Origin: Xylocopilactobacillus apicola
GTDB lineage: Bacteria; Bacillota; Bacilli; Lactobacillales; Lactobacillaceae
Assembly: GCF_033095985.1 (NCBI RefSeq)
Contig: NZ_AP026802.1
Span: forward strand, 1,426,001-1,490,000
Direction of reading: 5' to 3'
Length of the DNA stretch: 64,000 nucleotides
This document shows, piece after piece, positions 5,136-25,783 of the stretch. A program made the translations under genes and the position numbers. The first letter of the stretch is position 1; each line of letters starts with the position of its first letter. Below the pieces are notes generated by a model. The model searched no databases and was not told the origin of the DNA. It saw only the letters and a list, made by a program, of their open reading frames with translations.

Positions 5136-5149
5136 TTTTAGTCCTCCAT

Positions 5150-6728: not shown

Positions 6729-6833
6729 TAATCCATCTCCCTCTTAAAATAACAAATATTTTTTAATTTTAACATAAGTTACTGCTTATTTCTAGTTCTT
6801 TAAATAGTATAGATAAGGCAAACAATTAATAAT

Positions 6834-8120: not shown

Positions 8121-8141
8121 CTGCTACACTCGTTTTTACTA

Positions 8142-8171
8142 ATTGTACCTCAGATTTAGTGATAGCGGCAA
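8142..8171 (-). promoter_or_regulatory. Probable rpoN promoter
   Basis: On the minus strand TTGCCG (8166-8171), 18 nt, TACAAT (8142-8147), ending 21 bp before the rpoN start. Reasonable but not a strong match. Confidence 0.45.
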
Positions 8172-8192
8172 CAAAACTTTAAGCGGCACAAA

Positions 8193-8220
8193 AAATACCC
8201 CCTGCAAATGCAGGGAGTAC
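8193..8220 (-). terminator. Degenerate last repeat acting as array terminator
   Basis: This decayed repeat keeps the 7-6-4-6-5 architecture, but the stem has become CCCTGC/GCAGGG (a covarying pair). On the minus strand it is extended to CCCTGCATTTGCAGGG and runs into GGTATTTTTTG, an intrinsic terminator. It probably ends pre-crRNA transcription. Confidence 0.8.
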
Positions 8221-8708
8221 CTAGCAATGTCGATACCCCGTTTGAAACCTACAGGATCACCCCCGCTTGCGCGGGGAACACTAGTAGATAGCTACAGAAT
8301 CGAAGATAAGCTGGGGATCACCCCCGCTTGCGCGGGGAACACTGCACGGGGTCAACCTAATCGGGTCTCAGCATAGGATCACCCCCGCTTGCGCGGGGAA
8401 CACTATAAAGCGGTCAGACTGGCAGGGCTTTATAAAGGATCACCCCCGCTTGCGCGGGGAACACCAAGATTTCAAATCATACATGTGTTGAATTGCGGGA
8501 TCACCCCCGCTTGCGCGGGGAACACTTACTTCTATCGTTTCACCATTTTCTGGTGTAGGGATCACCCCCGCTTGCGCGGGGAACACGTCATGGTCATGCC
8601 CCAGGGCGAAATATCCACAGGATCACCCCCGCTTGCGCGGGGAACACAAAAAAACCACTTCGTCAAGTACCCGCCCTCGGGGATCACCCCCGCTTGCGCG
8701 GGGAACAC
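8193..8708 (-). CRISPR. Type I-E CRISPR array: 8 intact repeats plus a degenerate terminal repeat, 8 spacers
   Basis: Eight identical 28-bp repeats start at 8254, 8315, 8376, 8437, 8498, 8559, 8620 and 8681, with a strict 61-bp period and 33-bp spacers. A ninth, degenerate copy (8193-8220, 16 of 28 matches) is separated from the first by exactly 33 bp, so there are eight spacers. Read on the minus strand the repeat begins GTGTTCCCCGCGC and ends GGGTGATCC, the usual I-E orientation, with stem CCCCGC/GCGGGG; transcription therefore runs from 8708 down to 8193. Only 29 bp separate the leader-proximal repeat from the cas2-dnaQ stop codon. Perfect repeat identity suggests an active or recently active array. 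Confidence 0.97.
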
Positions 8709-8737
8709 ACTAAGAAAATCCCACTAAATCAACATTT

Positions 8738-9618
8738 CTAAATCTCCAGATCACCATTTTTTATGAGTTTTTCTGCCAGATCCATAGTTGCATCCGCATC
8801 AGATAGTGACTCATGAGGCTTTAAATTCTCAATCTCATATTTTTCTAAAACTGTCCCTAACCTGTAATCGTCTAAGAATTTATTTTTCTTTTTGACAACA
8901 GGCATCAAATCAATTAGTTTATTTGACAACTCTGATTCATTTAGATTTCTAAACGCCATCGAGATGAACTTATCATCAAACGACAGATTATACCCAACAA
9001 TCGGCATGTCCTCTGCAAATTCTTTTATATCTAATAATGCTTCAGACAATTCAACACCTTCATTTTCTAAAATTAAATTCGTGATACCTGTTAATTTCGT
9101 AATATTTTCAGGTATTTTTTTGTCGGTCTTAACGAACACATGGAACTTTTCTTTGAATCCATCAATATTATTTTTAACTGCACCAATGGAAATTATCTGA
9201 TCTTTACTAACATCTAAACCTGTAGTTTCAACATCAAGTGACATAAAGCTAGTTGGATTATTGGATACGACCCGTTTTTGAGTAAACTTTTTGGCTTTCC
9301 GCCATTTGGCAGCATTGCTAAATCCGTGTTTTACAAGTCCTTCTACCTTATTTAATCGCTTTACTAACGGGATACCGTCAAAATCTACAACCTGATAGTC
9401 AATTCTCGTAGTCCTGATTTGATAACCGAACTCGTTTTGAACATTGAAGACCATCGTTGCCTGACCATTGCCAATATCTCGCATAATTCGATCCCACAAT
9501 TGATCTCGAATTCTAGCACTAAAATTTCCAACATAAACGCCAGTCTGGATTTCTTGACACCACTTGGTTAAGTCACCTCTTAAGGAACGAGGAACTTTTG
9601 TTAAAGTAATAACGATCA

Positions 9619-9619
<1 letters not shown>
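8738..9619 (-). CDS. cas2: Cas2e fused to a DnaQ-like DEDDh exonuclease
   Basis: 293 residues in two domains. Residues 1 to about 95 are Cas2e (MIVITLTKVPRSLRGDLTKW, TGVYVGN), the structural hub of the Cas1-Cas2 integrase. Residues about 122-293 are a DEDDh 3'-5' exonuclease: D129 and E131 in SLDVETTG, D215/D216 in NLSFDD, H269 and D274 in PHESLSDADA. All catalytic positions are intact. The same fusion is known in Streptococcus thermophilus I-E, where the DnaQ domain trims prespacer 3' ends. The start ATG overlaps the cas1 stop (TAATG), so the two are coupled. Last gene of the operon, 29 bp from the array. Confidence 0.95.
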
Positions 9620-11218
<1,599 letters not shown>

Positions 11219-11229
11219 TTTGTTTTCTC

Positions 11230-11940
11230 CTACAACGCACTAAAAGGATCGTGATCTGTCGATTGATCTTTTTCTTGATAAGACGGATTAGTCAATTCAA
11301 TCATATCTCTCTCAACTGGACGATAGTTGAAAAAACGATTCTTTTGACTAAATGATCCGACACTATCTTTTACCATGAAATATTTATCTCCACTAAGTAA
11401 CTTTGAATCAGCCAGTAATTCAACTTTAACCGTTTGCTTATTAGATTTTGATTTTTGATACCAGCGGCTCGCTTGCCATGGAAAATCCTTTAAAACTTGA
11501 ACTGGATTTAACCCAGAAAATTCTTCGATCTGCAAAACTCCTGCTGGTACATTTGCGCGCCGTCCCAAAAACAGTTGATAGCCCGGATGTCTAAGAGCAA
11601 ATTGTATCTCATCGATTAACGAGTCATTATCACTTCCAATCGCTACCGCAAATACTGCATCTTGAATGTGTCCCCGATAAGTCAATTTTCGGGTGTCTTT
11701 TTTCCACTCAACCGTTTGAAATTCAGTAAAAACTCGACCTGGCTGATCAATTCTAACTGCAAAATCAAGACCATTTAAATCTGTGATTTTTTCATCATCT
11801 CGCTGGAATCCAAGTGCCGCAGCAATCATTCCGATCACTGCACTTTTTGAAGGATGAAGACTCGTAGTTCGCTGATTAAATGTTGCTTCATTACCAAACG
11901 ACTGAAGAGGACCGGTTAATTTAATCGTTATCGTTTTCAT
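11230..11940 (-). CDS. cas5e: Cas5e Cascade subunit
   Basis: 236 residues. MKTITIKLTGPLQSFGNEATFNQR is the typical Cas5e/CasD beginning (family pattern LxGPxQSWG); the following SLHPSKSAVIGMIAAALG is also diagnostic. Cas5e caps the crRNA 5' handle in Cascade and contacts Cas8e at the PAM. Its start overlaps the end of cas7e by 20 bp, and it is followed 11 bp later by cas6e. Confidence 0.94.
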   Translation of the reverse strand: MKTITIKLTGPLQSFGNEATFNQRTTSLHPSKSAVIGMIAAALGFQRDDEKITDLNGLDFAVRIDQPGRVFTEFQTVEWKKDTRKLTYRGHIQDAVFAVAIGSDNDSLIDEIQFALRHPGYQLFLGRRANVPAGVLQIEEFSGLNPVQVLKDFPWQASRWYQKSKSNKQTVKVELLADSKLLSGDKYFMVKDSVGSFSQKNRFFNYRPVERDMIELTNPSYQEKDQSTDHDPFSAL

Positions 11941-13015
11941 TTTGGACCACTTGTTGAAGCTCTTCTGATACTTTACTTAGTAACTCATTTAAATCTGTTA
12001 CTTGATCGTCCTTCAAAATACTATCTTTATCTCTTTCAATCTTTTCCATTGACAGTATTAAAGTTTTAATCGGTGTATCCACCATCTTCAAAGTGTTTTG
12101 ATATTCTTCTTCTAGTTTATTAATTGATGGTTTGACGTATCCTTGATTTGATTTCACTGGTTCTTCAAATGCTGAAACCAAATTAACGGGAGTATCAGTT
12201 CTAAGCGTAATCATTACATAATTAGGAAGAGTTTTATTGGCAAAAGTATTCTGCTTACCAGTTGGCATTGATAGTACAAACGATTTGATAAATTCAACTG
12301 CTCCTTCAACTGCCGCTTCAGATCCTAAATTATGAACCAACTCTGGGAAGTTTAAATTCGCATAACGATACAAAGTTGAAGAATTGTATTCGATCGAGCC
12401 TAACATTGTAGCTCCCGTTGTATCTTCTTTTTGGAGATCATCAAGGGCAGTGAAATAGTCAAATTCAGGTACTACTTCATGGGTAGAAATTGCATGGGCA
12501 ACTTGAGAAGATCCTTCGACATTTAGTTCTGGATTATCAGCAACCATCCGACCAAACAGAGCTAAATCTACTGACTGATTACCGTTGAAGATTTCTTTAA
12601 GTTCTTTTTTATCTATTTCTTCATGAGCAAGCACATATTCAGCAATTTTTTCAACTTGTCCTTTACTTATTAAAAGCAAAGCAGCCGTATCTTCACCTTT
12701 TAATTTAATGCCAGTACTTTTGAATACTTCTTTAACTTTATTATCCGCATCACTCTCAGATAAAGAAGAATCTAATGACATGATTTTCTCTTTTAATAAT
12801 TGAGCCAACTTTACTGTTCTTAATCCTGAACCCAAATCTTTACCATTCAACGCATGTCTCATTGCTCGTTTCCAGCTCTGAGAAGATACTCGTGATCTGA
12901 TAACTCCACCATATAAGGCAGTCTTTGGTGCCCCTGTGTCGTCACGATTGATATTAGACGATGGGACAGCTTGAAGGACATTGATGTCCAAGTATAGATT
13001 ATTTTTATTAGTCAT
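11921..13015 (-). CDS. cas7e: Cas7e Cascade backbone subunit
   Basis: 364 residues from the chosen start. Cas7e/CasC polymerises along the crRNA spacer and forms the Cascade backbone. Seen: LYLDINVLQAVPSSNINRDD, the RSRVSSQSWKRAMR segment and VVPEFDYFTALDD, all family landmarks. A longer in-frame start at 13057 would add 14 Lys/Glu-rich residues inside cse2; the ATG at 13015 sits behind AAGGAG with good spacing and gives an 8-bp overlap with cse2, as for other pairs in this operon, so it is preferred. Confidence 0.95.
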   Translation of the reverse strand: MTNKNNLYLDINVLQAVPSSNINRDDTGAPKTALYGGVIRSRVSSQSWKRAMRHALNGKDLGSGLRTVKLAQLLKEKIMSLDSSLSESDADNKVKEVFKSTGIKLKGEDTAALLLISKGQVEKIAEYVLAHEEIDKKELKEIFNGNQSVDLALFGRMVADNPELNVEGSSQVAHAISTHEVVPEFDYFTALDDLQKEDTTGATMLGSIEYNSSTLYRYANLNFPELVHNLGSEAAVEGAVEFIKSFVLSMPTGKQNTFANKTLPNYVMITLRTDTPVNLVSAFEEPVKSNQGYVKPSINKLEEEYQNTLKMVDTPIKTLILSMEKIERDKDSILKDDQVTDLNELLSKVSEELQQVVQNENDND

Positions 13016-13649
13016 TTTTTTCTCCTTTTTCTTCTGCTTTCTTAGCAGCATTTCCATAATATTGTTGACCCCATGATAATCGAACCGAATTTGCCGATTC
13101 GTAACTCATTTGAAACCAATAAAGGTCTTGAGCCAATTTTCCATAATCAATTTTTATCTTCAATTTTTTCGATTTAATGATGCCAACCAAGTGATTAAGT
13201 GAATTGATGACGCTATTAACATCAGTTGTTGACAATGTTTGGCGAACTCGCCGATCCAAAGCTACTTCTAAATCTTCGTTATGTCTCAATTCACCCAAAA
13301 CCGTGAAAAGGTCAACTCCTGGCTCTAACTTGTCATCTGATTCTGAATCAGAATTAGATTCTTTTTTATAGTCAATTGGTCCATAAACGAATTCATCACT
13401 GCCCTGCTGATGAATTGCATACATTCTCAAAGCAGAATATACTGCCTTTTCAGCGTATGATGGTTGACCATTTCTTCCCAATAAATCCTCTCGTAACGCT
13501 CTCATTATAATCGGCCAGGCGGGTTGAGCTCGAGGGCTGTTAAAACTTGCTGCACCACGAATACTAGCCAAAACTCCTCGGTAACTAGCGGTCCCATGTA
13601 ATATATGTATAATTGAACCAGTTACATTTTTAATTTCACTTTGTTTCAT
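13008..13649 (-). CDS. cse2: Cse2/Cas11e small subunit of Cascade
   Basis: 213 residues, all-helical in composition, with the family segments SYRGVLASIRGAASFNSPRA and EKAVYSALRMYAIHQQG. Cse2 forms the belly of Cascade and stabilises the displaced strand. It starts 8 bp after cas8e and overlaps cas7e by 8 bp. An acidic linker (SNSDSESDDKLEPG, around residues 93-106) is inserted in the middle. Confidence 0.92.
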   Translation of the reverse strand: MKQSEIKNVTGSIIHILHGTASYRGVLASIRGAASFNSPRAQPAWPIIMRALREDLLGRNGQPSYAEKAVYSALRMYAIHQQGSDEFVYGPIDYKKESNSDSESDDKLEPGVDLFTVLGELRHNEDLEVALDRRVRQTLSTTDVNSVINSLNHLVGIIKSKKLKIKIDYGKLAQDLYWFQMSYESANSVRLSWGQQYYGNAAKKAEEKGEKND

Positions 13650-13657
13650 AATTTCTG

Positions 13658-15343
13658 TTACCCTTTTATTCCTAGCTTGTTTAGAACACTTCCTAACAAA
13701 CGATTTCTTGCAATAAAAATATTAAGAGACTTATTGTTGTCTTCTTCAATCCCCGTAATATCACGTGGACTGCTATTTTTCATAAATTCTTTAACCTCAG
13801 AATTAACAATATCCCACAATGTTTCTTTCCACTCATTAATTTTCAGATCTCGATCATCATGATCTGATAATGAAGCTAACCACTCTTTGAATGGAAGATT
13901 TAATCGATCATAAAATTTACTCATTTGCTTTTTGTTAAATTCTTTCGAATCAAGACTCCGAATTTTAGATAAATTATCAGAAAATTTCCAATAGCTTTTG
14001 GCAACATCTTGGGTTAAGTCGATTGTATCCTCAATTCGTCGAGGCCAAAAATCTTGTTTATCGTCAAAGATTACATCAAGTCTCATTGTCAAATCATCAG
14101 ATATTTCCGCAAAAGGCGATTGAGATGTCGCATTTCCATCACTAACCAGTGAAACTGAAACTAAAGATACTGGTAATGACCGATCGATCATTCCATCTCC
14201 TTTAAGCCGACTCAACCAACTAACGATCCCTGGTCGATGAGTTTCATTCGATTTATTCGGATTCACGTAATCTCCAAAATTACGCCACATCGCTACATCC
14301 ATATAGTCCTTGTTTTTAACTGCCGGAACATAAATATCAGGCTCTTTTTTTGATTTTTTTCTCCAAGTACTCATCGGTTCAATATCAAAAGCATTATCTG
14401 GACTGTACATTGGGACTCCCGCACTATAAATTGTCGGAACCCCATCAGATGACCATTCAATGTGAATTAGGCGAGACCATGATGTGTACAAAGCTGCACG
14501 ATTATCGGGCAGTAATTCTTTCTTGCGCCATTTAACATATTCCTTAATATCAGTGCATTCCCAAATGGGACGCTCAATGTGATACTCCTCATCATCGAAA
14601 ACCAAGTTCAACATTAATGTCTCAAATAAATTTTTGCCTTTTACGTAAACCGGGTTTAACTTATAGAGCCACCCGGAAGGCGATGAAAACTTTTCTGAAG
14701 TTTCAACCTTTGCCTTGTCTGTTACACCGGTATAGTTTTGATAAGAAATCAACCAGCGGACTAATTCAGGCATATCTAATTCATTTTTAAAATCAGATAT
14801 TTTGGGAGAAAATAGATCTGGCGTATTATTACTCTCTGAAATTTGGCGGTTCATCTGCTTTATAGCAACCGTTCCTGTTCCTTTTTCAATTTTGTACTTT
14901 TCAAGGACCAGTGAATCATAATCTTCTTTTGATACTTGGTAAAAAGGATGTTCACCGAAAACATCAAACTTATCTTGATTATGTTTTAAGTAGTCAATGA
15001 CAACGGAAGTAAACTGACCATTTTGAAATAAACTCTCCCAAGTATCTAATAAGTCCTCCTCATCGTAATCTATAGTTGAATTTAAGACCTGAAAATTATC
15101 TGGATCAATTTCCAACCATTCATAAGGTCTATTTTCATTACTAAAGCGTGAATAGACGGTGTGCAAAATTGCTAGTAAAAATCTCATTATCGCAAGGTCT
15201 TGAGATCGCATTTCTCCTGCCAATTGCCGATAGTTATTGGCATTTTCGAAAAAATCGATCAACGACACTTCGCAAGTTTTTGAATCACTATCAATTACTT
15301 TAATCCAGGGATCAGTGGTTAAGTTGAATTGTTTATTATTCAT
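13658..15343 (-). CDS. cas8e: Cas8e/Cse1 large Cascade subunit
   Basis: 561 residues, the expected length. MNNKQFNLTTDPWIKVI at the N-terminus and FGEHPFYQVSKED (around residues 110-125) are characteristic Cse1 landmarks. The protein recognises the PAM and recruits Cas3. Its start overlaps the cas3 stop by 8 bp. Because it reads the PAM, it is the subunit that would have to accept the AA-type PAM next to the pseudo-spacer target at 18116-18137. Confidence 0.94.
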   Translation of the reverse strand: MNNKQFNLTTDPWIKVIDSDSKTCEVSLIDFFENANNYRQLAGEMRSQDLAIMRFLLAILHTVYSRFSNENRPYEWLEIDPDNFQVLNSTIDYDEEDLLDTWESLFQNGQFTSVVIDYLKHNQDKFDVFGEHPFYQVSKEDYDSLVLEKYKIEKGTGTVAIKQMNRQISESNNTPDLFSPKISDFKNELDMPELVRWLISYQNYTGVTDKAKVETSEKFSSPSGWLYKLNPVYVKGKNLFETLMLNLVFDDEEYHIERPIWECTDIKEYVKWRKKELLPDNRAALYTSWSRLIHIEWSSDGVPTIYSAGVPMYSPDNAFDIEPMSTWRKKSKKEPDIYVPAVKNKDYMDVAMWRNFGDYVNPNKSNETHRPGIVSWLSRLKGDGMIDRSLPVSLVSVSLVSDGNATSQSPFAEISDDLTMRLDVIFDDKQDFWPRRIEDTIDLTQDVAKSYWKFSDNLSKIRSLDSKEFNKKQMSKFYDRLNLPFKEWLASLSDHDDRDLKINEWKETLWDIVNSEVKEFMKNSSPRDITGIEEDNNKSLNIFIARNRLLGSVLNKLGIKG

Positions 15344-18092
15344 TGCTTTCCTCCTTTGTTAATTTTAGCCCAAACTTAGGCGAATAATTCAGATTCCACT
15401 TCTGATTAATTGTAGCATTAAAGTTTTCGTCTAATTTGACCGCTAATTCTCCTTTTAACCACTTACTAGATTCCCATCTTGGAAAGTATTTTCTAGTCGA
15501 CGTTTCTAAATCATTAATAATTTTATCTACATCATAATAAATCGCAGCGGGTAATCGAATAATTTGTTCAGCAATCTCTTTGTCCGAACATTTCTCAATC
15601 GGTCTACCATCAATTAAAAAAGTGTGGTCTTTCTTCTCTTGAATTAAAATGACTTCAAGTGTTTCTTTGATATCACGAACTGCAGCTTGCGCTTTCTGGT
15701 CATCGACTTTACTGTGCGAGTTCCCCAACCAACCATGTAAATTATTTCTTTTAGACGGTCGCTTCAACCGAAATGCTTGTGCCTTAGTCTCAGAGTCTGC
15801 TAAATGAGTTTCAAATTCATCACGAGCTTCTTCAAGCCCCTCTACTTCAGGATCATTTTCTTTGTCATAAACTGCTTGGACCAAATTAGATATATCTTTG
15901 GGCAAATTAATCTGATCATTTAGATAATAATCGGTTTTCATGAGGAGATATTTTTCATAGATAGCCTCATTTCCTGATCCGTAGTTACCCATAGATTCAA
16001 TACCCATTACATATAATTTAGGATCTTTGAACTTGTCAGGTCGTTTAATCGCATGACGATGGAGTCTTCCAGCTCGCTGCAAAAGTAAATCCATTGGGGA
16101 AATATCGGTATAAAGAACATCGAAATCAATATCTAGTGATTGTTCAAGAACTTGTGTGCCAATCACAACCATTTTTTTAGGTCTTTGTACATCTTTGCCA
16201 ATTTTCGATTGCAAATATTTTTCAATTTGTGTTCGTTCAGGGGCTAAAAACGCTGAATGCAGAACAATCAATTCAACATCTTCTTTATCGACGAGTTCAG
16301 CCAACGCTTGAGCTCTTTTAACTGTGTTAACGATCACTCCTGCAACTCCACCGCCAGCGATTTCCGATAAGATTGACTGAACTAGTTCCTCATCTTCTAA
16401 ATTAATTCGTTCAACTTCAAGCGTTACAGGTTTTTGATCTGAATGTCCCGCAAAATTAGAAACTTGCTTGACCTCAGTTCCATCTAAAACCGTCAACAAA
16501 GGATAAGCCTGTGATTTAGTCCAATCTCCACCTACACCTATCGATTTTCCGTATTTTCCACGGTAGTAACTTGCAATTAACTCCTGCCGTTTTTCTTTTG
16601 GCAATGTTGCTGACAAAATCACCATCGGGACCCGATACGCTCCAAGCCACTCAATTGCCATGTACAAATATTGACTCATATAGGCGTCATACGCGTGCAC
16701 CTCGTCAATTACAACCACTTTATTATTAAAACCTAAGTGTCTCAAAAATAAATGTTTTTGTTTAAGCGCCATCAGCAAAAGCATATCAATTGTACCGACC
16801 GTGAAATTAGCTAACGTTGATTTCTTCCCAGAAAACCAGTCATTAACAACTACAGCACCTGTATCTTCGATGTTACTGGCGTTTGGTAGATTTTCGTAAT
16901 CTGAATTGAATTGCGCCTTGCCGTGCAGCAATTTGAATGGGAAGTTTTCGTTTTGATCTTTGGCTAACGTTTCTAACCAACTAAGCACCCTGTTGAACAT
17001 CGCATTACTCGTAGCTTGGGTGGGCAAACCCCAAAACAATCCACTACGTTTAGTGGCATAAGCTAGTTGTTCTGTAGCTACTAGAGAAATTTCAGTTTTT
17101 CCTAATCCCATCGGTGCTTCAATGATCACCATTCCAGGATCATTTGCTTGATCAATAGTTTCTGTGATAACTCTTTGCACTGGTCGAGCATTAAAACCCC
17201 AACGTTTTCGATAAGGATCTTCCTCAAGACTCACCTTTTTCGGTTCCCAATTTTCTCCAATATTCCATGTTTCAATTGCATTTTCAAAACGAGCTTGAAA
17301 ATCAATGTCATCAAAATTTTTATCAAGAGAAATTAACGGAAACAGTTTTTTACTCCGATCATTCCCCAGAAACTCACTCGATGCGAACCAATCGGCTGTA
17401 ATTAAAAGTCCCTCTAAAACTACGGCTCGTGATTGATTAACGTTTGGAATGTCTTTTACGGATTGATACCCTGCTCGACTTAATCCGTATTCAAAAATTT
17501 CTTTCTGAACGTTTCGCCACATCTTACATACTTCCGGAACGCTACTGTCAGATCTAGGATCTTTATCGTATTGATAATAATTAGCTCTATAATCATTGAT
17601 TTGATTATAAGGAACATTTTCTCCAGCATCCCCGTGATGTCCTCCGATAATTGATCCGATTGATTCAGGAACACCTAAGTCCTCTAATATAGCTTCACCA
17701 GCCATGGCATGTGGTGATTTTCTAGGAAATGACAAACTAATCTGATCCAGATCGATAAATTTTGATTGAACCAACTTATCAATCAATTCGTTATCTAATT
17801 CTTTGTCACCATTATATGAAGGAATGGTTTGAAATGCTGGCGTTGCTTTACCAATATCATGGGTAATGCCCAAAAACTTTACTAATTTCCTCAGTTCATC
17901 CTCATCACCAACACCTTCAACAAACCAACTTTTTGTCCCTTCACTTAACCAGTGGTTTAGGAGCCAACCAATCGTATTTTCGGCATCAATTAAGTGTGCC
18001 ATTAAAGGCAACCAAAGTTGCTTCCCGTCCTCATTCGATTTTTTAGCCCACATATTTCGGGCCATTAAATTTACTTTTTTATTTTCTTTCAT
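15336..18092 (-). CDS. cas3: Cas3 HD nuclease-helicase (type I-E effector)
   Basis: 918 residues. The N-terminal HD nuclease has MAHLIDAE, GITHDIGKATPAFQ, SPHAMAG and GGHHGD; the superfamily 2 helicase has Walker A APMGLGKTE, box II VVIDEVHAYD, SAT motif ILSATLP and motif VI QRAGRLHRH. Recruited by Cascade, it nicks and degrades target DNA 3' to 5'. First gene of the cas operon; ATG at 18092 follows AAGGAG. All nuclease and helicase motifs are intact, so interference looks functional and tight control of the operon would be useful. Confidence 0.97.
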   Translation of the reverse strand: MKENKKVNLMARNMWAKKSNEDGKQLWLPLMAHLIDAENTIGWLLNHWLSEGTKSWFVEGVGDEDELRKLVKFLGITHDIGKATPAFQTIPSYNGDKELDNELIDKLVQSKFIDLDQISLSFPRKSPHAMAGEAILEDLGVPESIGSIIGGHHGDAGENVPYNQINDYRANYYQYDKDPRSDSSVPEVCKMWRNVQKEIFEYGLSRAGYQSVKDIPNVNQSRAVVLEGLLITADWFASSEFLGNDRSKKLFPLISLDKNFDDIDFQARFENAIETWNIGENWEPKKVSLEEDPYRKRWGFNARPVQRVITETIDQANDPGMVIIEAPMGLGKTEISLVATEQLAYATKRSGLFWGLPTQATSNAMFNRVLSWLETLAKDQNENFPFKLLHGKAQFNSDYENLPNASNIEDTGAVVVNDWFSGKKSTLANFTVGTIDMLLLMALKQKHLFLRHLGFNNKVVVIDEVHAYDAYMSQYLYMAIEWLGAYRVPMVILSATLPKEKRQELIASYYRGKYGKSIGVGGDWTKSQAYPLLTVLDGTEVKQVSNFAGHSDQKPVTLEVERINLEDEELVQSILSEIAGGGVAGVIVNTVKRAQALAELVDKEDVELIVLHSAFLAPERTQIEKYLQSKIGKDVQRPKKMVVIGTQVLEQSLDIDFDVLYTDISPMDLLLQRAGRLHRHAIKRPDKFKDPKLYVMGIESMGNYGSGNEAIYEKYLLMKTDYYLNDQINLPKDISNLVQAVYDKENDPEVEGLEEARDEFETHLADSETKAQAFRLKRPSKRNNLHGWLGNSHSKVDDQKAQAAVRDIKETLEVILIQEKKDHTFLIDGRPIEKCSDKEIAEQIIRLPAAIYYDVDKIINDLETSTRKYFPRWESSKWLKGELAVKLDENFNATINQKWNLNYSPKFGLKLTKEESNE

Positions 18093-18115
18093 CCATTCTC
18101 CTTACTTCAAACTCG

Positions 18116-18137
18116 AATATTTTAGATAATACTATAG
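18116..18137 (-). promoter_or_regulatory. Putative Cascade target site over the cas -10 box
   Basis: Compared with the pseudo-spacer 18235-18256 it matches 17 of 22 positions: 5 contiguous at one end and 11 contiguous (ATAATACTATA on the plus strand) in the seed half. On the minus strand the preceding bases are AAA, so the flanking PAM reads AAA or AAC depending on whether the first spacer base is counted as PAM-derived. The site covers the -10 element and the start region. Confidence 0.7.
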
Positions 18138-18154
18138 TTTTTTCTTAGAGTCAA
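18126..18154 (-). promoter_or_regulatory. Promoter of the cas operon
   Basis: On the minus strand TTGACT (18149-18154), a 17-nt spacer, TATTAT (18126-18131). The expected start near 18119 gives a leader of about 27 nt to cas3. The -10 box lies entirely within the stretch (18116-18137) matched by the pseudo-spacer at 18235-18256. Confidence 0.82.
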
Positions 18155-18164
18155 TTTTTAATTC

Positions 18165-18200
18165 AAAAAAATAGCGGTTTGACTGCCGCTAATTTTTTTT
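18165..18200 (-). terminator. Terminator between the small RNA unit and the cas promoter
   Basis: Arms TAGCGG (18172-18177) and CCGCTA (18186-18191), with T-runs on the appropriate side in both directions (seven on the minus strand, eight on the plus strand). It isolates the mini-array transcript from the cas operon, so cas genes must rely on their own promoter. Confidence 0.85.
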
Positions 18201-18206
18201 GAAAAC

Positions 18207-18285
18207 TTAATACACCCGCTTATGCGGGGAATACTATATTCCAAATAATACTATAAGGATCACCCCTGCTTATTGCAGGGAATAA
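18207..18285 (-). repeat. Two degenerate CRISPR repeats around a 22-nt pseudo-spacer
   Basis: The copies at 18207-18234 and 18257-18285 share the orientation of the main array. The first has 20/28 identity; the second is 29 nt because its loop is one base longer. Both keep a hairpin, one through a compensatory C-G to T-A change. The 22-nt interval differs from the 33 nt of every true spacer. Confidence 0.88.
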
Positions 18286-18307
18286 ACTTACAAAAAGTTC
18301 CTTTAGA

Positions 18308-18336
18308 AGATTAGTTCTTTCCACTCAAATTTTCAA
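18308..18336 (-). promoter_or_regulatory. Putative promoter of the mini-array RNA
   Basis: On the minus strand TTGAAA (18331-18336), 17 nt, TAATCT (18308-18313). The start would fall near 18301, about 16 nt before the first pseudo-repeat. The -10 matches only the T1, A2 and T6 positions, so the assignment rests mainly on spacing and position. Confidence 0.5.
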
Positions 18337-18354
18337 CCCCTATTTTCATTGCAA

Positions 18355-18393
18355 CAAAAAATCCCTTGTATTAAATCGACAAATACAAAGGAT
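18355..18393 (-). terminator. Terminator of the PTS/GH32 operon
   Basis: Twelve-bp stem (18361-18372 with 18382-18393, one G-T pair) followed on the minus strand by six T. It stops the PTS operon before the CRISPR regulatory region. Confidence 0.88.
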
Positions 18394-18400
18394 TGGTCAA

Positions 18401-19771
18401 TTACTTGACTTTACAAACGCTATTATAAACGGAAATACTTAAAAGATGACTGATATTTTTTTCTATTCGACAACTTAAAACCGTTCCCTCAATATCTAAT
18501 ACAGCTATTGTGTCATCAACCAATAAATTCAAATGATACCAACGATCTGTTTTTAATTTTTTTTGCCGAGTTAACCCAATATTTTGCATTTGAAACCATC
18601 GCAAATTTGGCGTTCGCTCAATCGATATAGCTTGATCAGACATAGAAATATTAAATTCATAACCCTCAAACGTAGCTTCATTTTCAAAGAAAATAACCCC
18701 CAACTGTCCATAATCTTTTTCAAATAAAAAATCCATTGAAAAAAGATAATTGTTTTTTAATTTTTTTTGAACGATTATTTCTTGCCGTTTTGAAAGCGAA
18801 TTTATTTTCAGATCAGAAACAGTGATTTTAGACTCAACCGTCTCAAGAATCGAATCGACCAATTTAGTTTGTAATACTCCATCCGGGGCGGGATAAATTT
18901 CTAAAGGCAAAAACGTGCCTCCCCACAAATAGTTATTGATATCTTTACCTGCTTCTTTTGAAGGAACCCAGCCAAATAAATATTTGCGTTTATCATCACC
19001 ACAACAACGCGCTGCATAATAAGCGCGACCATTGAAAGTATCATCGCGAGGAATTATCCAATTTCCATTTAATTCTCGGCTGTAACAATAGTGGGTCGTT
19101 TTCTTATAATCATATTCCGAATAAATCAGATACCACCATGCTCCAATCCTTACAAGTTGGGGCATTTCCATCATCGTATACATATCCGGCGCAAAAAAAT
19201 CGCCCTGAAAATTCCAATTTTGACAATCATGTGAAGTAAAATAGACGATCCGTCCCGTTTTTAATTTTTTGTTGCCCTTTAACCGGGTTCCTAAAATCAA
19301 TAAATATTCCTGATTTTTTTCATCCCAAATCACATTGGGATCACGCCAATCGTCTCCATCATAGCCTTTTTGCGGTAATAAACTGTTTACAATTCCGAGC
19401 TTATTCCATTTGATCCCATCACTACTAACCGCTTGCATCAACACTTGAGATGGCTTCTCTTTATTTACAAAATTTCGATTATAACCGGTATAGTATGCTA
19501 CTAAATCATGATTTGCATTTAGAAAAACACTTCCAGCGTACACAAACTGATCCTGATCATCATCGCTACCTTTCGGTAGCACCTCCCCATAATTTGTATA
19601 ATTTATAAAATCTTTTGTCGTAACTAATTGCCAGCCAAACGGATCGCCAAAAGGAACCGGATTGCGCGTATCCTTTTGATAATATAGATAAAACAACCCA
19701 TCTTTTTGATTAAAAAATGGCATACAATCTCCAAAAAAACAATTATCGGGTCGAAATAAATATTGTTCCAT
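18401..19771 (-). CDS. Glycoside hydrolase family 32-type beta-fructosidase
   Basis: 456 residues, no signal peptide, so intracellular. A five-blade beta-propeller family: a nucleophile-type Asp in FFGDCMPFF (position of the usual NDPN), the DWRDPNVIW block (RDP motif, about residue 137) and an MEMPQLV block at the place of the usual EC motif (acid/base Glu), then a C-terminal beta-sandwich. The active-site blocks deviate from textbook invertases (GDCMP for NDPN; EMPQ for ECPD), so it belongs to a divergent branch. As the last gene of a mannose/fructose-type PTS operon it probably hydrolyses a phosphorylated fructosyl sugar delivered by that PTS (inference). Confidence 0.8.
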   Translation of the reverse strand: MEQYLFRPDNCFFGDCMPFFNQKDGLFYLYYQKDTRNPVPFGDPFGWQLVTTKDFINYTNYGEVLPKGSDDDQDQFVYAGSVFLNANHDLVAYYTGYNRNFVNKEKPSQVLMQAVSSDGIKWNKLGIVNSLLPQKGYDGDDWRDPNVIWDEKNQEYLLILGTRLKGNKKLKTGRIVYFTSHDCQNWNFQGDFFAPDMYTMMEMPQLVRIGAWWYLIYSEYDYKKTTHYCYSRELNGNWIIPRDDTFNGRAYYAARCCGDDKRKYLFGWVPSKEAGKDINNYLWGGTFLPLEIYPAPDGVLQTKLVDSILETVESKITVSDLKINSLSKRQEIIVQKKLKNNYLFSMDFLFEKDYGQLGVIFFENEATFEGYEFNISMSDQAISIERTPNLRWFQMQNIGLTRQKKLKTDRWYHLNLLVDDTIAVLDIEGTVLSCRIEKNISHLLSISVYNSVCKVK

Positions 19772-19785
19772 AAAGATTCCCTTCT

Positions 19786-20559
19786 TTAAATAAAATGAAA
19801 ATCGGTTAAAGATTTCACAATGCCCAAATTATCATTTGTATCGGTTACCAGATCAACCATTTTCTTGATTTCATCTTTTCCATTCCCCATTGCTACCGAA
19901 TAATTTACTGCCTTGAACATACTTATATCATTGTATCCATCTCCAAAAGCATATGTAGGAATCCCCTGCAAACCTGATTTTTCAATAAAGTTAATAATTC
20001 CTTGCCCCTTAGAATTCCCTTTAGATACAGCATCAATGGTATGATCACTTGTAATAAATAGTTCTAGATTAGGCATATTTTTAATATAGTTATCGTCAGT
20101 ATGATGTGACAAAATCAATAGTTGATTAACAGGATTGGCCTCATAAAAGTTTAAGTTTACTTCAGGAAATGGTTGTCCTTTATGTTCATAGAAGTGCCTA
20201 GATAAATATTGGTCTTTCGATACACATATTTGCTTGTAATTATAAAAGCAAACTACATCATCTCTTTTCAATGAGTAGTCAACAGCCTGCTCACAAATAT
20301 CTTTTTCGATAAAATTATTTTGGATAATTTGTCCTTCGTACTCCAAATATTGGCCATTCATAGAAACTATCGATTTAATATGACACTTCTCCATAATATT
20401 CTTAACCTCAAAAACTGACCTTCCCGTACAAAGAGCTGGTAAATAGCCATTATCTTTCAGTTTAATAATTGCGCTCCTCACTTCTTCTACAAGTGTGGAT
20501 TTACTGGATAACAGCGTTCCATCAACATCAAAGAAAATCAAAGCTTTATATTCGCTCAC
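19786..20559 (-). CDS. Cof-type HAD-IIB phosphatase in the PTS operon
   Basis: 257 residues from a GTG start behind GCGGAGG. Motif I FFDVDGTLL, motif II (VSMNGQ), motif III Lys in SKGNSKGQGI, motif IV AFGDGYNDISMFKA. The Cof cap type is C2B. It lies between the EIID gene (20 bp upstream) and the GH32 gene (14 bp downstream), so it probably dephosphorylates a sugar phosphate generated by the same pathway. It is distinct from the Cof protein at 1285-2106. Confidence 0.87.
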   Translation of the reverse strand: MSEYKALIFFDVDGTLLSSKSTLVEEVRSAIIKLKDNGYLPALCTGRSVFEVKNIMEKCHIKSIVSMNGQYLEYEGQIIQNNFIEKDICEQAVDYSLKRDDVVCFYNYKQICVSKDQYLSRHFYEHKGQPFPEVNLNFYEANPVNQLLILSHHTDDNYIKNMPNLELFITSDHTIDAVSKGNSKGQGIINFIEKSGLQGIPTYAFGDGYNDISMFKAVNYSVAMGNGKDEIKKMVDLVTDTNDNLGIVKSLTDFHFI

Positions 20560-20579
20560 TTGAGTTACCTCCGCTAAAA

Positions 20580-21398
20580 TTAAGCCAAAATTTTAAGAAA
20601 GCTACAAACAAAAGAGAAGACGACCAATATAATAATTATTTTATTTGGGTTGACTTTCCTTTTGACTAAGAAAAAACACCCAAGAGTTAAAGTCAAAGGA
20701 ATGATGCTTAACAGTATTTGATCCAAGATTTCTTGTAATTTAAACGTCATATCTCCCATTTTAAACACAAAAGGAGTTTTTAACGGTACGGTACTAACAA
20801 TCATTGCTCCAACCATGATCATTCCTAATAAACCTGCAGCCTTAGTAACGACTTTTATCAGACCATTTTTATAAGACTTCTCAATGAAGTCGCCTCCAAT
20901 GTTATAACCCAGAGGCGTTCCATAAAATCGACAAATAAAACTAGGTACATTGTAAAGAATTAAAAATAAAATTGGGCCTAAAATGTTCCCGGTCTTAGCA
21001 AGACTGATTCCAATCCCCGCTGCAATAACTCTAATCGTAACCCAAAATAATGAATCGCCAATGCCTGATAACGGTCCCATTAAACTTGCTTTGACGGCAT
21101 TAATTGAACTTGCATCAAAGTCATCTAATTCCGCATTTTTTTCTTCCATGCTGGCTAGTATTCCAACAAGAAAAGTTGAAAAGGCCGGAGTCATATTAAT
21201 ATATGTTTGATGACGTTTTAATGCTTCGACCCTTTTAGGTTTATCCTCGGGATTAGGATAAATCTTTTTAATAAATGGTGTTAGCATGCATAAAATTCCG
21301 ATCCCCTGTCCACTAATATAATTCCATGAACCCTGAATAAGAAATGAGCGCCAAAAAACTTTGTTAAATAATTTTTTGTTTTCTTTTGTCTTAGTCAT
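20580..21398 (-). CDS. PTS mannose/fructose/sorbose-family EIID
   Basis: 272 residues from ATG 21398 (GAGGAGG nine nt upstream; a longer frame to 21416 lacks a ribosome site). Cytoplasmic N-terminus followed by the family blocks FWRSFLIQGSWNYISGQG, FNTHP-like INMTPAFSTFLVGI and GPLSGIGDSLFW, then C-terminal membrane helices. EIID and EIIC together form the sugar channel. The start overlaps the EIIC stop by 8 bp. Confidence 0.95.
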   Translation of the reverse strand: MTKTKENKKLFNKVFWRSFLIQGSWNYISGQGIGILCMLTPFIKKIYPNPEDKPKRVEALKRHQTYINMTPAFSTFLVGILASMEEKNAELDDFDASSINAVKASLMGPLSGIGDSLFWVTIRVIAAGIGISLAKTGNILGPILFLILYNVPSFICRFYGTPLGYNIGGDFIEKSYKNGLIKVVTKAAGLLGMIMVGAMIVSTVPLKTPFVFKMGDMTFKLQEILDQILLSIIPLTLTLGCFFLVKRKVNPNKIIIILVVFSFVCSFLKILA

Positions 21399-22218
21399 TG
21401 AAGAAGTCCTCCTCAATAGTATCGCTACTTTTTACAACAGAATTATTATTGCCTAAAAGTTTCAAATCATTCAAAAAATTTTTATTATCCAATATTTGTT
21501 TATCAGTAGTTGCGATAATAATTGCTAAGATGGTGCCAAGAATCGCAATTGCTATTAAAGGTAGTTTTAAATAGCTCGCCATCAGTAATCCTAAAATCAT
21601 ATACATCGTGTTTCCCTTCTCTTGAATCATATTAAGCAGCATTGCGATTCCTAATGCTGGTAAAACTTTGCTTAAAACCGTTAATCCATCCATAACGAAT
21701 TTTGGAATAGAGTGAACTAAAAGAGAAATTGAAGAATTACCCAAATAAATTCCTAAAAAACCAATTAGCGCATAAATTAATGGTCCGATAAAGATACTTG
21801 CAATTTGTAAATGTTCAATTTTTTTAATATTATCCTCCTCAGCAAATCTATTGAACAAGGGGACCATTAATCCTTTTATAAACATCACTATTTGTTTTAT
21901 GAACACTGCTAAAAGTCCAATTGGAATTGCCAAAGAAAGAGCAACAGAAGTGCTCTGATGATTTAAAATTGCAAAAGCTGTTCCAAAAATTGAACCTGTC
22001 ATCACATCGGCTGGCATCGCGCCACCGATTCCATTTATTCCTAAAAAAATTACTTCTAGTGATGCACCCATTAAGACCCCTTTTCTTAGATCTCCTAACA
22101 GCAGCCCCACAACCATTGCCATTACCAGTGGTCTTCTGATCATTGGATCTGACATTCCTGCGTCAGAAAGATTTCCAAGAAACATAACAAAAGCCACACA
22201 AAGAGCAGGAACTAACAT
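21391..22218 (-). CDS. PTS mannose/fructose/sorbose-family EIIC
   Basis: 275 residues with about seven to eight membrane helices; the family blocks GLLLGDLRKGVLMGASLEVIFLG and GGAMPADVMTGSIFGTAFAI are present. ATG 22218 follows AAGGAGG. It forms the membrane channel with EIID and accepts phosphate relayed by EIIA and EIIB. An acidic tail (DTIEEDFFND) ends at the overlap with EIID. Confidence 0.95.
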   Translation of the reverse strand: MLVPALCVAFVMFLGNLSDAGMSDPMIRRPLVMAMVVGLLLGDLRKGVLMGASLEVIFLGINGIGGAMPADVMTGSIFGTAFAILNHQSTSVALSLAIPIGLLAVFIKQIVMFIKGLMVPLFNRFAEEDNIKKIEHLQIASIFIGPLIYALIGFLGIYLGNSSISLLVHSIPKFVMDGLTVLSKVLPALGIAMLLNMIQEKGNTMYMILGLLMASYLKLPLIAIAILGTILAIIIATTDKQILDNKNFLNDLKLLGNNNSVVKSSDTIEEDFFND

Positions 22219-22229
22219 AATCTACCTCC

Positions 22230-22715
22230 TTATAAAACATCTTTTAAATTTAAATTTTGATCCGTCGGAACCGGTTGGATATTAATTTTGACCCCCGCCT
22301 TCAACAAATCCTGTAAAATTTGTTCTTCATCCTTTTTAACGAAAATATTTTTTCCTAGTTGTCTTTTTTCGTTCATCTTTTCTCCATTAACTCTGCCATA
22401 ATTGCCCAAGTTAACTAAAGGAATTCCATCAACTTTTTGCACAATTTTCAAAGCATCTAATGGCTTATCAACAATTACAAAAATTTTTAATTGCTGAGAT
22501 TTAGGATTGTTTAACAAACTAATTGCTTTATCAACGGTTACAAAAAATGGTTTAATTCCCTCAGGAACTGCCATCTTTAAACTCATGATTTGCATTTCAT
22601 TTTTAACTACTTCATCATTGACTACGACAATCCGATTCACTCCCAAATATCTACTCCAAACAACCGCAACTTGTCCATGAATCAAACGATCATCAACTCT
22701 CAACATACTAATCAA
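22230..22715 (-). CDS. PTS mannose/fructose/sorbose-family EIIB
   Basis: Cytosolic phosphocarrier of about 161 residues. The phosphorylated His is in LRVDDRLIHGQVAVVW. A TTG at 22715 is chosen: it follows AGGAGA with 8-nt spacing, overlaps the EIIA stop by 8 bp and gives the family's usual ISMLRVDD beginning; the ATG at 22724 is too close to the ribosome site. Sequence alone does not separate mannose, fructose/levan and sorbose specificity. Confidence 0.94.
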   Translation of the reverse strand: MISMLRVDDRLIHGQVAVVWSRYLGVNRIVVVNDEVVKNEMQIMSLKMAVPEGIKPFFVTVDKAISLLNNPKSQQLKIFVIVDKPLDALKIVQKVDGIPLVNLGNYGRVNGEKMNEKRQLGKNIFVKKDEEQILQDLLKAGVKINIQPVPTDQNLNLKDVL

Positions 22716-23133
22716 AAAAATCATCTCCTATATCATTGTTATGAGTTTCCTCTTTATTTAATTTAACTAACACAATTGAATTTTTGGCAGACCGAATTCC
22801 TGATTCGATTAATTCCTGAATATTTTTATTTGTTTGTTCTAAAACTAATTCTAAAATCATCATAATATTCATACCCGATATCAAAAAAACTCGCTCATTG
22901 ATAAGTTTGGTTAAACAAGTGTTAATGCTTCCTCCAGGAAAATCAGAAATTAGAATTATTTCCTCGCCAGAATGCTCCTCAATTGCTTTTTCCACTCGTT
23001 GCCTTATTATCTCCGGACTGTCCGTCTCACTCATTGAAAAATCTTGAAGATTATCATGTTTCCCGCTGATCATTTCAATAGAGTTCTTCATCCCTTTAGC
23101 TAATTGTCCATGACTTACTAAAAATAATTGCAA
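22708..23133 (-). CDS. PTS mannose/fructose-family EIIA
   Basis: 141 residues, TTG start behind TAGGAG. The phosphoryl-accepting His is at residue 9 (LFLVSHGQLAKGMKNS), and the SDFPGGSINT block is typical of EIIA-Man. EIIA and EIIB are separate here, as in levan-type (LevD/LevE) and sorbose-type systems, rather than fused as in ManL/ManX. First gene of the operon, downstream of the sigma-54 promoter. Shut-off would come through HPr~P/EIIA control of LevR (known for the family). Confidence 0.94.
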   Translation of the reverse strand: MQLFLVSHGQLAKGMKNSIEMISGKHDNLQDFSMSETDSPEIIRQRVEKAIEEHSGEEIILISDFPGGSINTCLTKLINERVFLISGMNIMMILELVLEQTNKNIQELIESGIRSAKNSIVLVKLNKEETHNNDIGDDFFD

Positions 23134-23203
23134 TGTTTTTCTCCTAAGAATTAACTTTAATAGCTATTAATAACAAAATACACAGGTACCTTACTCCTAT
23201 CTA

Positions 23204-23222
23204 TAAGCAATAACCGTGCCAA
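23204..23222 (-). promoter_or_regulatory. Sigma-54 (-24/-12) promoter of the PTS operon
   Basis: On the minus strand TTGGCAC (23216-23222), then 4 to 5 nt, then TTGCTT (23205-23210): TGGCAC-N5-TTGCT is the RpoN consensus. It ends 71 bp before the EIIA start. An RpoN gene (6834-8120) and a LevR-type AAA+ activator (just upstream) are both in the window. Confidence 0.9.
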
Positions 23223-23257
23223 ATTTTGAATAGCAGACCCCGCTCCAGCAATGTTTT

Positions 23258-23290
23258 CAAAAAAAATAGTGTTGAAATTACTTCAACACT
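23258..23290 (-). terminator. Terminator of the levR-like gene
   Basis: Perfect 9-bp stem AGTGTTGAA (23268-23276) and TTCAACACT (23282-23290), followed on the minus strand by a run of T. It separates the activator gene from the PTS promoter. Confidence 0.9.
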
Positions 23291-23308
23291 AGCCTTTTTG
23301 ATCCAACA

Positions 23309-25783
23309 CTAAGATTCAATTTGTCCTTCAATGATTTGATAAACGTACTCATACTCCTGTAAGGGAATTTTAATATTATATTTGTTTTTAATTGATTGAA
23401 AAATAGCCTCAGCTACTTGAACAAACTTCTGGAATTTAAAGTCTTTAATCTCAATTGAATCTTCACCAATATCACCTAGCAAAATCCGCTCTATCATTGA
23501 AGATAAATGCAAATATAAATTAACACGAATAAAATTCTTAAAAACCACATGATACTGCTGTTCCAAAGCCGTAATTATATCAGAAATTTCGTTAATTACT
23601 TTATCGGGATTTAAAAATTGCAGACGCGAACTTGCTCCTTCAATCGTAAAAAGTTTGATTAGTTCATTGGTAAATTGCTCTAGTTCCTTGGAAGTATATA
23701 AATTGCCCAAACACGTGAGATTCTGGTTTCCATTAACTACTCGTTCAAGGTTAATACACTCGACACCGGGAATCGAAATCTGTGATGTAGCTATAATACA
23801 AAAAGTATTTTTAAATGTTGTGGGATTATTTAAGTCTTTTAGTTTTTTTAACTTATTATAATCAAGCGTTAAAACTTCAACTTCATTTTTCGGTTTAAAT
23901 TTATCTAATATTTCTTTGATTTTTTCAGCAACTCCCTGACCAGACATACATGAAATTACGATATTCTGGGTTCGAGCGATCCCTTCAAAATATTGGCTTT
24001 CGACGTTAAACTGCGTGTAATCTAATTGCGTAAAATATTCCATCGGTTGATTTTGTTTTAACGCAAAACCGACTTCAAGCGCTAAAGCCGTTGAAATATT
24101 ATTTAAAATTAAAAGATCTCCTTGAACGTTATCTTTAATCTCCGAATACATCTTCTCAAGCGAACCCATATCCACCAACAAAATTAAACCTTCTTTGGTC
24201 TCAATTTGCTGAACATATTCATTCACTTTTTTAACTATTTCACGAGTCTTCACCTGGACCGGCATATCAATCGAAGTATAAACATAATCGCCAATTAATT
24301 GATTGGCTTCACTTGCAATACTCGTAGCAGAATTTTTACCATGCATGATTACTAATGCGGGTCGTTTGGTTGTTATCGGTAAATTTGTTTGCAAATAACT
24401 AACCAGCATCAGTTGCATTAATGGACTAAAATTATCCTGATGAGTCAAACGATTTAATTCTTGAATAATGCGAAAATATTTAAAAGAAATTTTCGGTTTA
24501 ATTTCGACATTTATTGATCTGTAATCAAATAATAAATTGATTAAAATAGCAAGTTCCTTTAAATTTTCAAACGAAAACTTTAGGCCAAAGAATTTTAGCT
24601 CATTGAGACCTTTTTCTAAATTGTGCAAAATAATTTGATAGCCTAAATTATCCGACGAACAGTACGGTTTAAGAAGCGCCAAAAACTTACCTAAATTGTC
24701 CCCGATCCCCTCAGCTGTTAAATTGGGAAAAGTTTGCTGAAGAATGTTCGTAATCGTAGATTGATTTAACAAAGTCATTTGTTTGGAATCAATGGTAATA
24801 TAGTTGTTTAAATTTGAAGTCGGGACGTGAATTACTGATGAATTTTCTTGCTGACTGTAAGCTTGCGCACAACTCACCTTAATCTTATTTTGGATTGCAC
24901 CCACATTACCCTCATCATGGCTATGAAATAAATCATCCAGCAATGTAGTTGAAACCAATATTTTACGATTAATTTGTTTAGCTTCATTTTCAAAGAAATG
25001 CCATATTAATTCAAGCTTTTCGTGATAAGATCGAGCCTGAAAATCAGGTAATGTGACTTCTAAAGGAATCCGACGACGAAAAGTTGCTAAAAGAGCAGTT
25101 TTTGTATTCTCAGTCGTTGCTAGAATAATCCGAATCTTTGCTTGATGCCAATTATTATCTTCACCAAGTCGATGAAATTTTTTTTTGTCGATTAGGAGAA
25201 AAAGTTTTTCCTGATTTTCTTGTGACAAATTATGAACTTCATCCAAAAACAAATAACCAGTATCCGCTGCATCCAATAAACCTGTTCTATCTTTAGTAGC
25301 ACCAGTAAAAGCACCAGTAACATAACCGAATAACACTGATGATAATAACTCAGGATTGTTAGCATAATCGGCACAATTTAAAGTAACAAATGGTGCATCC
25401 GGCTGAATAACTCGCTGTGCCAAAGCATATTGATAAATTTTTTTAGCCAACATGCTTTTACCAACTCCACTGCTGCCCCGAATAATAACTGGTAATCCAT
25501 CTGGCGGATAATTTACTGCCGCCCGACATTGTTCAATTATTGGAGCCAAACTATCATGAGCACCAATTACATCAGCAAAAACTTTTTCTTGCAGCGGCAA
25601 CCAAAATTTAGTTGGTCGAGTATTGGCTTTAGCCAAAATTCCAACTTTATATAATTGGTTTAAATAGCCGGAGATCATACTACGCGATAAATGGGTTAAA
25701 GCCAACAAATCTTGAGCCGAAAATTTTTGCCCTGGCCGAAAATTTATCTTAATTTGTTGTTCAATCTGCTTCAATGTTGCCAA
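23309..25783 (-). CDS. levR: LevR-type sigma-54-dependent transcriptional activator with PRD/EII domains
   Basis: About 824 residues. Order: N-terminal winged helix-turn-helix (about 1-65); AAA+ domain with Walker A GSSGVGKSM, the RpoN-contact loop GAFTGA and Walker B YLFLDEVHNLS (about 75-320); PRD1; an EIIA-Man-like domain with VIMHGKNSATS; an EIIB-like segment with ISCMSGQGVA; C-terminal PRD2 with LHLSSMIERILLGD. Such regulators activate mannose-family PTS operons with RpoN and sense PTS phosphorylation. A GTG at 25792 overlaps the ribosome site AGAGGT; TTG at 25783, seven nt from it, is chosen. It sits directly upstream of its likely target promoter. Confidence 0.93.
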   Translation of the reverse strand: MATLKQIEQQIKINFRPGQKFSAQDLLALTHLSRSMISGYLNQLYKVGILAKANTRPTKFWLPLQEKVFADVIGAHDSLAPIIEQCRAAVNYPPDGLPVIIRGSSGVGKSMLAKKIYQYALAQRVIQPDAPFVTLNCADYANNPELLSSVLFGYVTGAFTGATKDRTGLLDAADTGYLFLDEVHNLSQENQEKLFLLIDKKKFHRLGEDNNWHQAKIRIILATTENTKTALLATFRRRIPLEVTLPDFQARSYHEKLELIWHFFENEAKQINRKILVSTTLLDDLFHSHDEGNVGAIQNKIKVSCAQAYSQQENSSVIHVPTSNLNNYITIDSKQMTLLNQSTITNILQQTFPNLTAEGIGDNLGKFLALLKPYCSSDNLGYQIILHNLEKGLNELKFFGLKFSFENLKELAILINLLFDYRSINVEIKPKISFKYFRIIQELNRLTHQDNFSPLMQLMLVSYLQTNLPITTKRPALVIMHGKNSATSIASEANQLIGDYVYTSIDMPVQVKTREIVKKVNEYVQQIETKEGLILLVDMGSLEKMYSEIKDNVQGDLLILNNISTALALEVGFALKQNQPMEYFTQLDYTQFNVESQYFEGIARTQNIVISCMSGQGVAEKIKEILDKFKPKNEVEVLTLDYNKLKKLKDLNNPTTFKNTFCIIATSQISIPGVECINLERVVNGNQNLTCLGNLYTSKELEQFTNELIKLFTIEGASSRLQFLNPDKVINEISDIITALEQQYHVVFKNFIRVNLYLHLSSMIERILLGDIGEDSIEIKDFKFQKFVQVAEAIFQSIKNKYNIKIPLQEYEYVYQIIEGQIES

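Follow-up and report, generated by a model that had tools for sequence, protein, structure and literature searches.

The 64,000-nt stretch of DNA analyzed here (the window; G000:C1:1426001-1490000, from a 2.31-Mb host genome in one contig) carries, upstream of cas3, a mini-CRISPR that is very probably a CreR-type, Cascade-guided autorepressor of the cas3 promoter, judging from its sequence and from those of its relatives. At 18207-18287 on the minus strand, two diverged type I-E repeats enclose a 22-nt spacer. The spacer matches the cas3 promoter next to an AA PAM, the mismatches in such pairs are concentrated at bases that Cascade leaves unread, and guide and target have changed together between the window and its nearest relative.

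A mini-CRISPR beside a complete type I-E cas operon

The cas operon is complete and of type I-E; on the minus strand it runs from cas3 through cas8e, cas11, cas7, cas5, cas6e and cas1 to a cas2e-DnaQ fusion, next to which lies an array with I-E-type repeats (Table 1). The named cas3 relatives nearest to the window are mostly from Lactobacillaceae. In the working array, GTGTTCCCCGCGCAAGCGGGGGTGATCC recurs in 8 exact copies at 8254-8708 (0 matches are expected from shuffled sequences), and the period of 61 nt therefore gives spacers of 33 nt. We noted that the diverged last repeat of the array (8199-8219) has the stem CCCTGC/GCAGGG, a stem change identical to that of the first pseudo-repeat (psiR1) in the mini-CRISPR. 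The array as a query against a phage collection returned five matches, which we read as repeat-driven, hence a PAM was not derivable from protospacers. An Rfam scan of 5000-25000 at E 0.1 gave no match.

Table 1. Features of the cas locus, in window coordinates
Feature	Position	Strand	Remarks
psiR1, first pseudo-repeat, GTTTATTCCCTGCAATAAGCAGGGGTGATCC	18257..18287	-	compensated hairpin CCCTGC/GCAGGG, intact GTGATCC 5' handle; handle exact in 15/15 validated elements
Guide/spacer, TTATAGTATTATTTGGAATATA, 22 nt	18235..18256	-	its first base is the last of the 8-nt handle; 21 nt are read
psiR2, second pseudo-repeat, GTATTCCCCGCATAAGCGGGTGTATTAA	18207..18234	-	5' flank and CCCGC/GCGGG hairpin kept; handle lost (TGTATTAA)
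Candidate guide-RNA promoter, TTGAAA-17-TAATCT	18308..18336	-	weak -10 (3/6); read from sequence, conserved in G003
Terminator-like hairpin (both strands)	18172..18191	-	separates guide unit from cas3 promoter
Guide target in cas3 promoter	18116..18137	-	AA PAM at 18138-18139; over TTGACT-17-TATTAT; sequence match
cas3 promoter	18126..18154	-	-35 TTGACT, 17 nt, -10 TATTAT
cas3	15336..18092	-	first gene of the operon
cas8e/casA	13658..15343	-	TIGR02547
cas11/casB	13008..13649	-	
cas7/casC	11921..13057	-	
cas5/casD	11230..11940	-	
cas6e	10568..11218	-	
cas1e	9619..10566	-	
cas2e fused to DnaQ-like exonuclease	8738..9619	-	PF09707 and PF00929
CRISPR array	8199..8708	-	8 exact repeats and a diverged terminal repeat, 33-nt spacers

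The initial annotation had described psiR1 as retaining GTGATCC together with one compensated pair in its stem, and the second pseudo-repeat (psiR2) as retaining its CCCGC/GCGGG stem with a handle altered from GGTGATCC to TGTATTAA; both descriptions agree with what is seen in the sequence. The unit is also present where it had been placed, but its end, given as 18285, lies two bases further, at 18287. The loop of psiR1 is 5 nt rather than 4, and its 5' flank has diverged. Hairpins are predicted for psiR1 (-11.7 kcal/mol, z -2.7) and psiR2 (-9.8 kcal/mol, z -3.3), and the folding of the 143-nt stretch at 18170-18312 has a z of -4.4. The candidate promoter of the guide RNA, TTGAAA-17-TAATCT, is absent from the listing of a consensus promoter scan.

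Guide and target in the cas3 promoter

We numbered the guide with the first spacer base as position 0, since this base completes the 8-nt handle. Compared with the promoter strand AA-CTATAGTATTATCTAAAATATT (18116-18137), the guide TTATAGTATTATTTGGAATATA is identical at positions 1-11 and differs at 0, 12, 14, 15 and 21, and the target site overlaps the -10 of TTGACT-17-TATTAT. The first mismatch after the seed, at position 12, is at a base that Cascade leaves unread, and a G:T wobble is possible at positions 14 and 15. When every position was scored and only sites with an AA PAM were admitted, the match between spacer and promoter reached a z of 4.3 against 200 shuffled guides (p 0.005), and a z of 5.7 when unread positions were omitted and wobble was allowed. 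As a control, 200 of the 245 distinct ordinary array spacers of related loci were put through the same scan and gave a z of -0.02 ± 1.07; four of the 200 were above z 3, and one of these four, L082, was judged to be a further CreR element and counted as such. The AA-flanked seed pattern AANTATAGNATTATNT, with positions 6 and 12 free, occurs at two sites in the whole genome of the host, one of which is the cas3 promoter. The other (G000:C1:190755-190770, L095) lies between two longer converging ORFs.

A guide of this kind might also act as an antitoxin, as in CreTA, by repressing a small toxin whose release makes cells Cascade-dependent, in which case the cas genes would not be the target. CreA guides share the build of the unit and target promoters via an 11-bp seed (excerpt of PMC10989794). 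The targeted promoter in the window, however, runs straight into cas3: the 23 nt between the target and the cas3 ATG, with a ribosome-binding-like AAGGAG, leave no room for an ORF, although the leader might hold a toxic small RNA. We regard a CreTA-like antitoxin as highly unlikely here.

Guide/promoter pairs in related loci

A Cas3 search of 397 genomes of the family gave a match in 73 of them, at 74 loci. A contig scan with a single Cas3 protein as query returned no relative; an alignment as query did find relatives. The first scan covered up to 1.2 kb upstream of cas3 and required a hairpin and, after it, TGATCC in which one mismatch was tolerated; it yielded 25 first repeats outside regular arrays, 24 with distinct spacers, 23 scorable and 12 with z > 3 by plain scoring. 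From these 12 we dropped L089, before the 15-pair count, as its site is in distant, coding-like DNA far from the promoter (the footprint described below was also computed with L089 included), and added L082, leaving 12 Lactobacillaceae loci. L093, L051 and L056, the last with the same spacer as L051, have mismatches at positions 6 and 12 and are convincing by eye; they were dropped for a z < 3 with all positions scored, as was L062 (z 2.8). The remaining lone first-repeat candidates had no clear site within 1.2 kb. The second scan, free of any rule on the handle sequence, covered 55 of 80 named loci (the 25 left out are mostly more distant MAGs) and added Lactobacillus agrestimuris (L111), Kineothrix alysoides (L119) and a Bacillota MAG (L134); L114 and L142 of the named set duplicate L086 and L061, and each locus was counted once. 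Guide/promoter pairs thus number at least 15 with the window included, 12 among the 74 Lactobacillaceae cas3 loci and 3 others, and all locus counts are lower bounds. A plasmid search gave one match, in Fructilactobacillus, only under its cas3.

A clear sigma-70 promoter is not present at every target. In L043 (about 900-1416) the target precedes a small ORF (1141-1416) with weak helix-turn-helix matches, ahead of cas3, and the guide may therefore also control a regulator. In L111, L119, L051 and L056 the best target is upstream of the mini-CRISPR itself, so that a single autorepressed promoter may serve both the guide RNA and cas3.

Over positions 1-15 of the 15 pairs, mismatches occupy 19 of the 30 cells at positions 6 and 12, as against 8 of 195 elsewhere (Fisher p 4e-14). 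The 14 pairs without the window gave 18/28 versus 6/182, and none of the other 6-nt phases was enriched in the same 15 pairs. The choice of pairs did not favor this footprint because scoring weighted positions 6 and 12 like their neighbors. Type I-E Cascade flips out every sixth crRNA base, which stays unpaired, and position 6 is less important for binding in vivo (excerpt of PMC5904413). A guide that is read by Cascade would explain the footprint, and we know of nothing else that does. If the spacer were instead a copy of the promoter, and the match a product of common descent and not of selection, it would likewise resemble its own promoter; but decay of a copy would not put 19 of the 27 mismatches within positions 1-15 at the two unread positions, nor would it yield the four identical co-changes described next, and this explanation is extremely improbable. 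The guide may nonetheless have originated as a promoter copy.

Among relatives that have the locus, G003 is the nearest (Cas3 90% identical); it has kept the unit with an altered guide, and it shares with the window a conserved block that includes the candidate guide promoter. The two guides differ within positions 1-20 at 5, 6, 9, 17 and 19. Position 6 is unread, and the changes at 5, 9, 17 and 19 are all four accompanied by the identical change in the target; this count was taken from the guide/target pairs, the MAFFT alignment of the two cas3 promoters being poor. Within the first 11 positions, G003 has one uncompensated mismatch at a read position, 10. In a swap test on 10 loci, true guide/promoter pairs scored a mean of 12.9/15 and swapped pairs 8.5/15. 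The true pair of L082 scored low (7/15) because its site is 0.9 kb upstream of cas3 and the test took in just the last 125 bases. With the PAM filter off, the best site was still preceded by AA in 15/15 (background 0.12), among pairs that had been chosen with the filter on. Target position 0 is C or T in 15/15, as is the first base of array spacers in 237/245. Collectively, these comparisons argue that the guide/promoter match is maintained by selection in relatives, a property that we ourselves demanded of a CreR.

The two repeats have decayed unequally. In the 15 validated elements, window included, TGATCC is found in repeat 1 of 15/15 and in repeat 2 of 0/15; for 12 of the 15 the search itself allowed no more than one mismatch to TGATCC, so that the count for repeat 1 is partly ascertained, and in L111, L119 and L134, which were found without a handle rule, the handle of repeat 1 is also exact. 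Repeat 2 has kept its 5' flank (64/75 positions) and each stem arm (81/90), and only 34/90 of its TGATCC positions. Repeat 1 has diverged in its 5' flank (44/75 kept) and 5' stem arm (57/90), figures that are depressed by changes in stem or loop length, as repeat 1 was aligned at the handle. All repeat figures are from a stricter table; an earlier one omitted L083. What is kept would be the parts that make up the mature guide or allow its release, and what is lost, the discarded ends. The proposal of the initial annotation that this asymmetry marks a functional single-guide unit, for which it had suggested an alignment across relatives, is supported by such an alignment; equal decay of both repeats in relatives, which that annotation had named as a refutation, is not what the 15 elements show. 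The decisive evidence was absent from that annotation: the promoter match, the mismatches at unread positions and the co-change.

The same data bear on whether the unit is a decaying, functionless remnant of an old CRISPR array, with an accidental asymmetry and promoter match. Both of its repeats have indeed diverged from the array repeat, and other lone repeats occur in the same genome. Against a remnant, the promoter match exceeds those of shuffled guides and ordinary array spacers, 14 other loci have the same architecture with different spacers that each match their own upstream region, and neither the concentration of mismatches at unread positions, nor the co-changes with G003, nor the handle in 15/15 first versus 0/15 second repeats fits such decay. 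We consider a remnant very improbable.

The spacers of the 15 elements are 21-23 nt long in 9 and 33-34 nt in 6, with none between; the 12-nt step equals two 6-nt Cas7 footprints. At positions 27-32, three of the six long spacers match at five or six further bases, and the other three at hardly any. The initial annotation had suggested that the short spacer of 22 nt might favor binding over Cas3 cleavage. Going by its title, an E. coli study among the references of the Haloarcula paper cited next reportedly finds that Cascade with a shortened spacer can still interfere. In the I-B system of Haloarcula, spacers no longer than 24 nt bring about repression but neither interference nor priming (excerpt of PMC10989794), a precedent for the suggestion; a short spacer as an essential feature is rejected, given the six elements with 33-34 nt. 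The common factor is limited complementarity and not shortness alone, as long spacers mostly pair no further than short ones.

Known regulators and a proposed mode of action

CreRs autorepress I-B, I-E and V-A systems through partial promoter complementarity (excerpt of PMC13131331). By its sequence, the unit in the window fits a CreR on every point tested, and the kind of regulator is already known: a mini-CRISPR with diverged repeats and one spacer adjoins the cas operon, and its guide is partially complementary to its own cas promoter, with a PAM. A CreR would further be processed by Cas6 and bound by Cascade, for which the unit has kept hairpins and handle, and would repress cas transcription until relieved by competing crRNAs or by anti-CRISPR proteins. 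CreRs (Liu et al. 2023, Cell Host Microbe; known here via excerpts of the citing papers PMC13131331 and PMC12737573) are likewise cas-adjoining, mini-CRISPR-derived guides with partial cas promoter complementarity, type I-E included, and no difference emerged in any feature compared. A literature search on CreR in Lactobacillus CRISPR yielded nothing related. None of the titles and abstract openings found names a 6-nt footprint in CreR-type guides; primary CreR papers were outside the scope, so no novelty is claimed. We would describe the unit as a known type of regulator with an unusually clear evolutionary footprint.

CreA of CreTA resembles the unit in its two diverged repeats, in a spacer through which Cascade is directed to a promoter and in a first repeat that is more diverged, which has been linked to specificity for its own CRISPR-Cas, but CreA represses a toxin, whereas the promoter in the window is that of cas3 (excerpt of PMC9458426). 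The type II long-form tracrRNA, also an RNA of CRISPR origin, represses its own cas operon too, though it is based on Cas9 and tracrRNA and not on Cascade (excerpt of PMC8730458).

Transcription, Cas6e processing, repression and feedback most likely proceed as follows. A short transcript would start from the unit's own promoter, for which the candidate has a -10 (TAATCT) that is a poor match to the consensus. Cas6e would cut both hairpins and release a single crRNA-like guide: the 8-nt handle GUGAUCCU, then 21 nt of read guide and, 3' of these, the psiR2 hairpin. Once loaded with this guide, Cascade would bind its AA-flanked site, which overlaps the -10 region in the cas3 promoter, and thereby block transcription of the cas3-cas8e-...-cas2 operon. 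Since pairing is mostly PAM-proximal, Cas3 would, we propose, not be licensed to cut the DNA of its own cell. When Cascade is scarce or occupied by other crRNAs, repression would ease, giving a negative feedback on Cas levels. More tentatively, the I-E autorepressor of Firmicutes may be long-lived, with guide and promoter drifting together except at the flipped-out bases, and most guides, being 12 nt (two Cas7 steps) shorter than those used for immunity, may provide the cell with a Cascade population that is smaller, does not cut and serves regulation only.

Sequence alone makes it very likely that a CRISPR system regulates its own level through a guide aimed at its own promoter, and evolution respects exactly those positions that structures call unread. 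Other genomes can be searched cheaply for such regulators by this footprint, a strong signature, and the guides themselves would be natural examples of binding with no cutting, of use for gene silencing in lactic acid bacteria.

Solitary CRISPR-repeat RNAs are also known as Racr anti-CRISPRs of phages; these are mobile-element-encoded inhibitors of effectors, in contrast to the unit, a regulator encoded at the cas locus (excerpt of PMC10651486). A lone I-E-type repeat of the host genome, GTATTCCCCGCGGATGCGGGGGTGATCC at G000:C1:1629495-1629522 (L091 796-823), lies within an S24-peptidase-like, phage-repressor-like reading frame; it may be solitary in the manner of Racr, or simply stray. Distant from the cas operon of the window, at G000:C1:2056374-2056523 and beyond (L092), lies another small I-E-type array, whose repeat, GTATTCCCCGCGTGAGCGGGGGTGATCC, is a different one.
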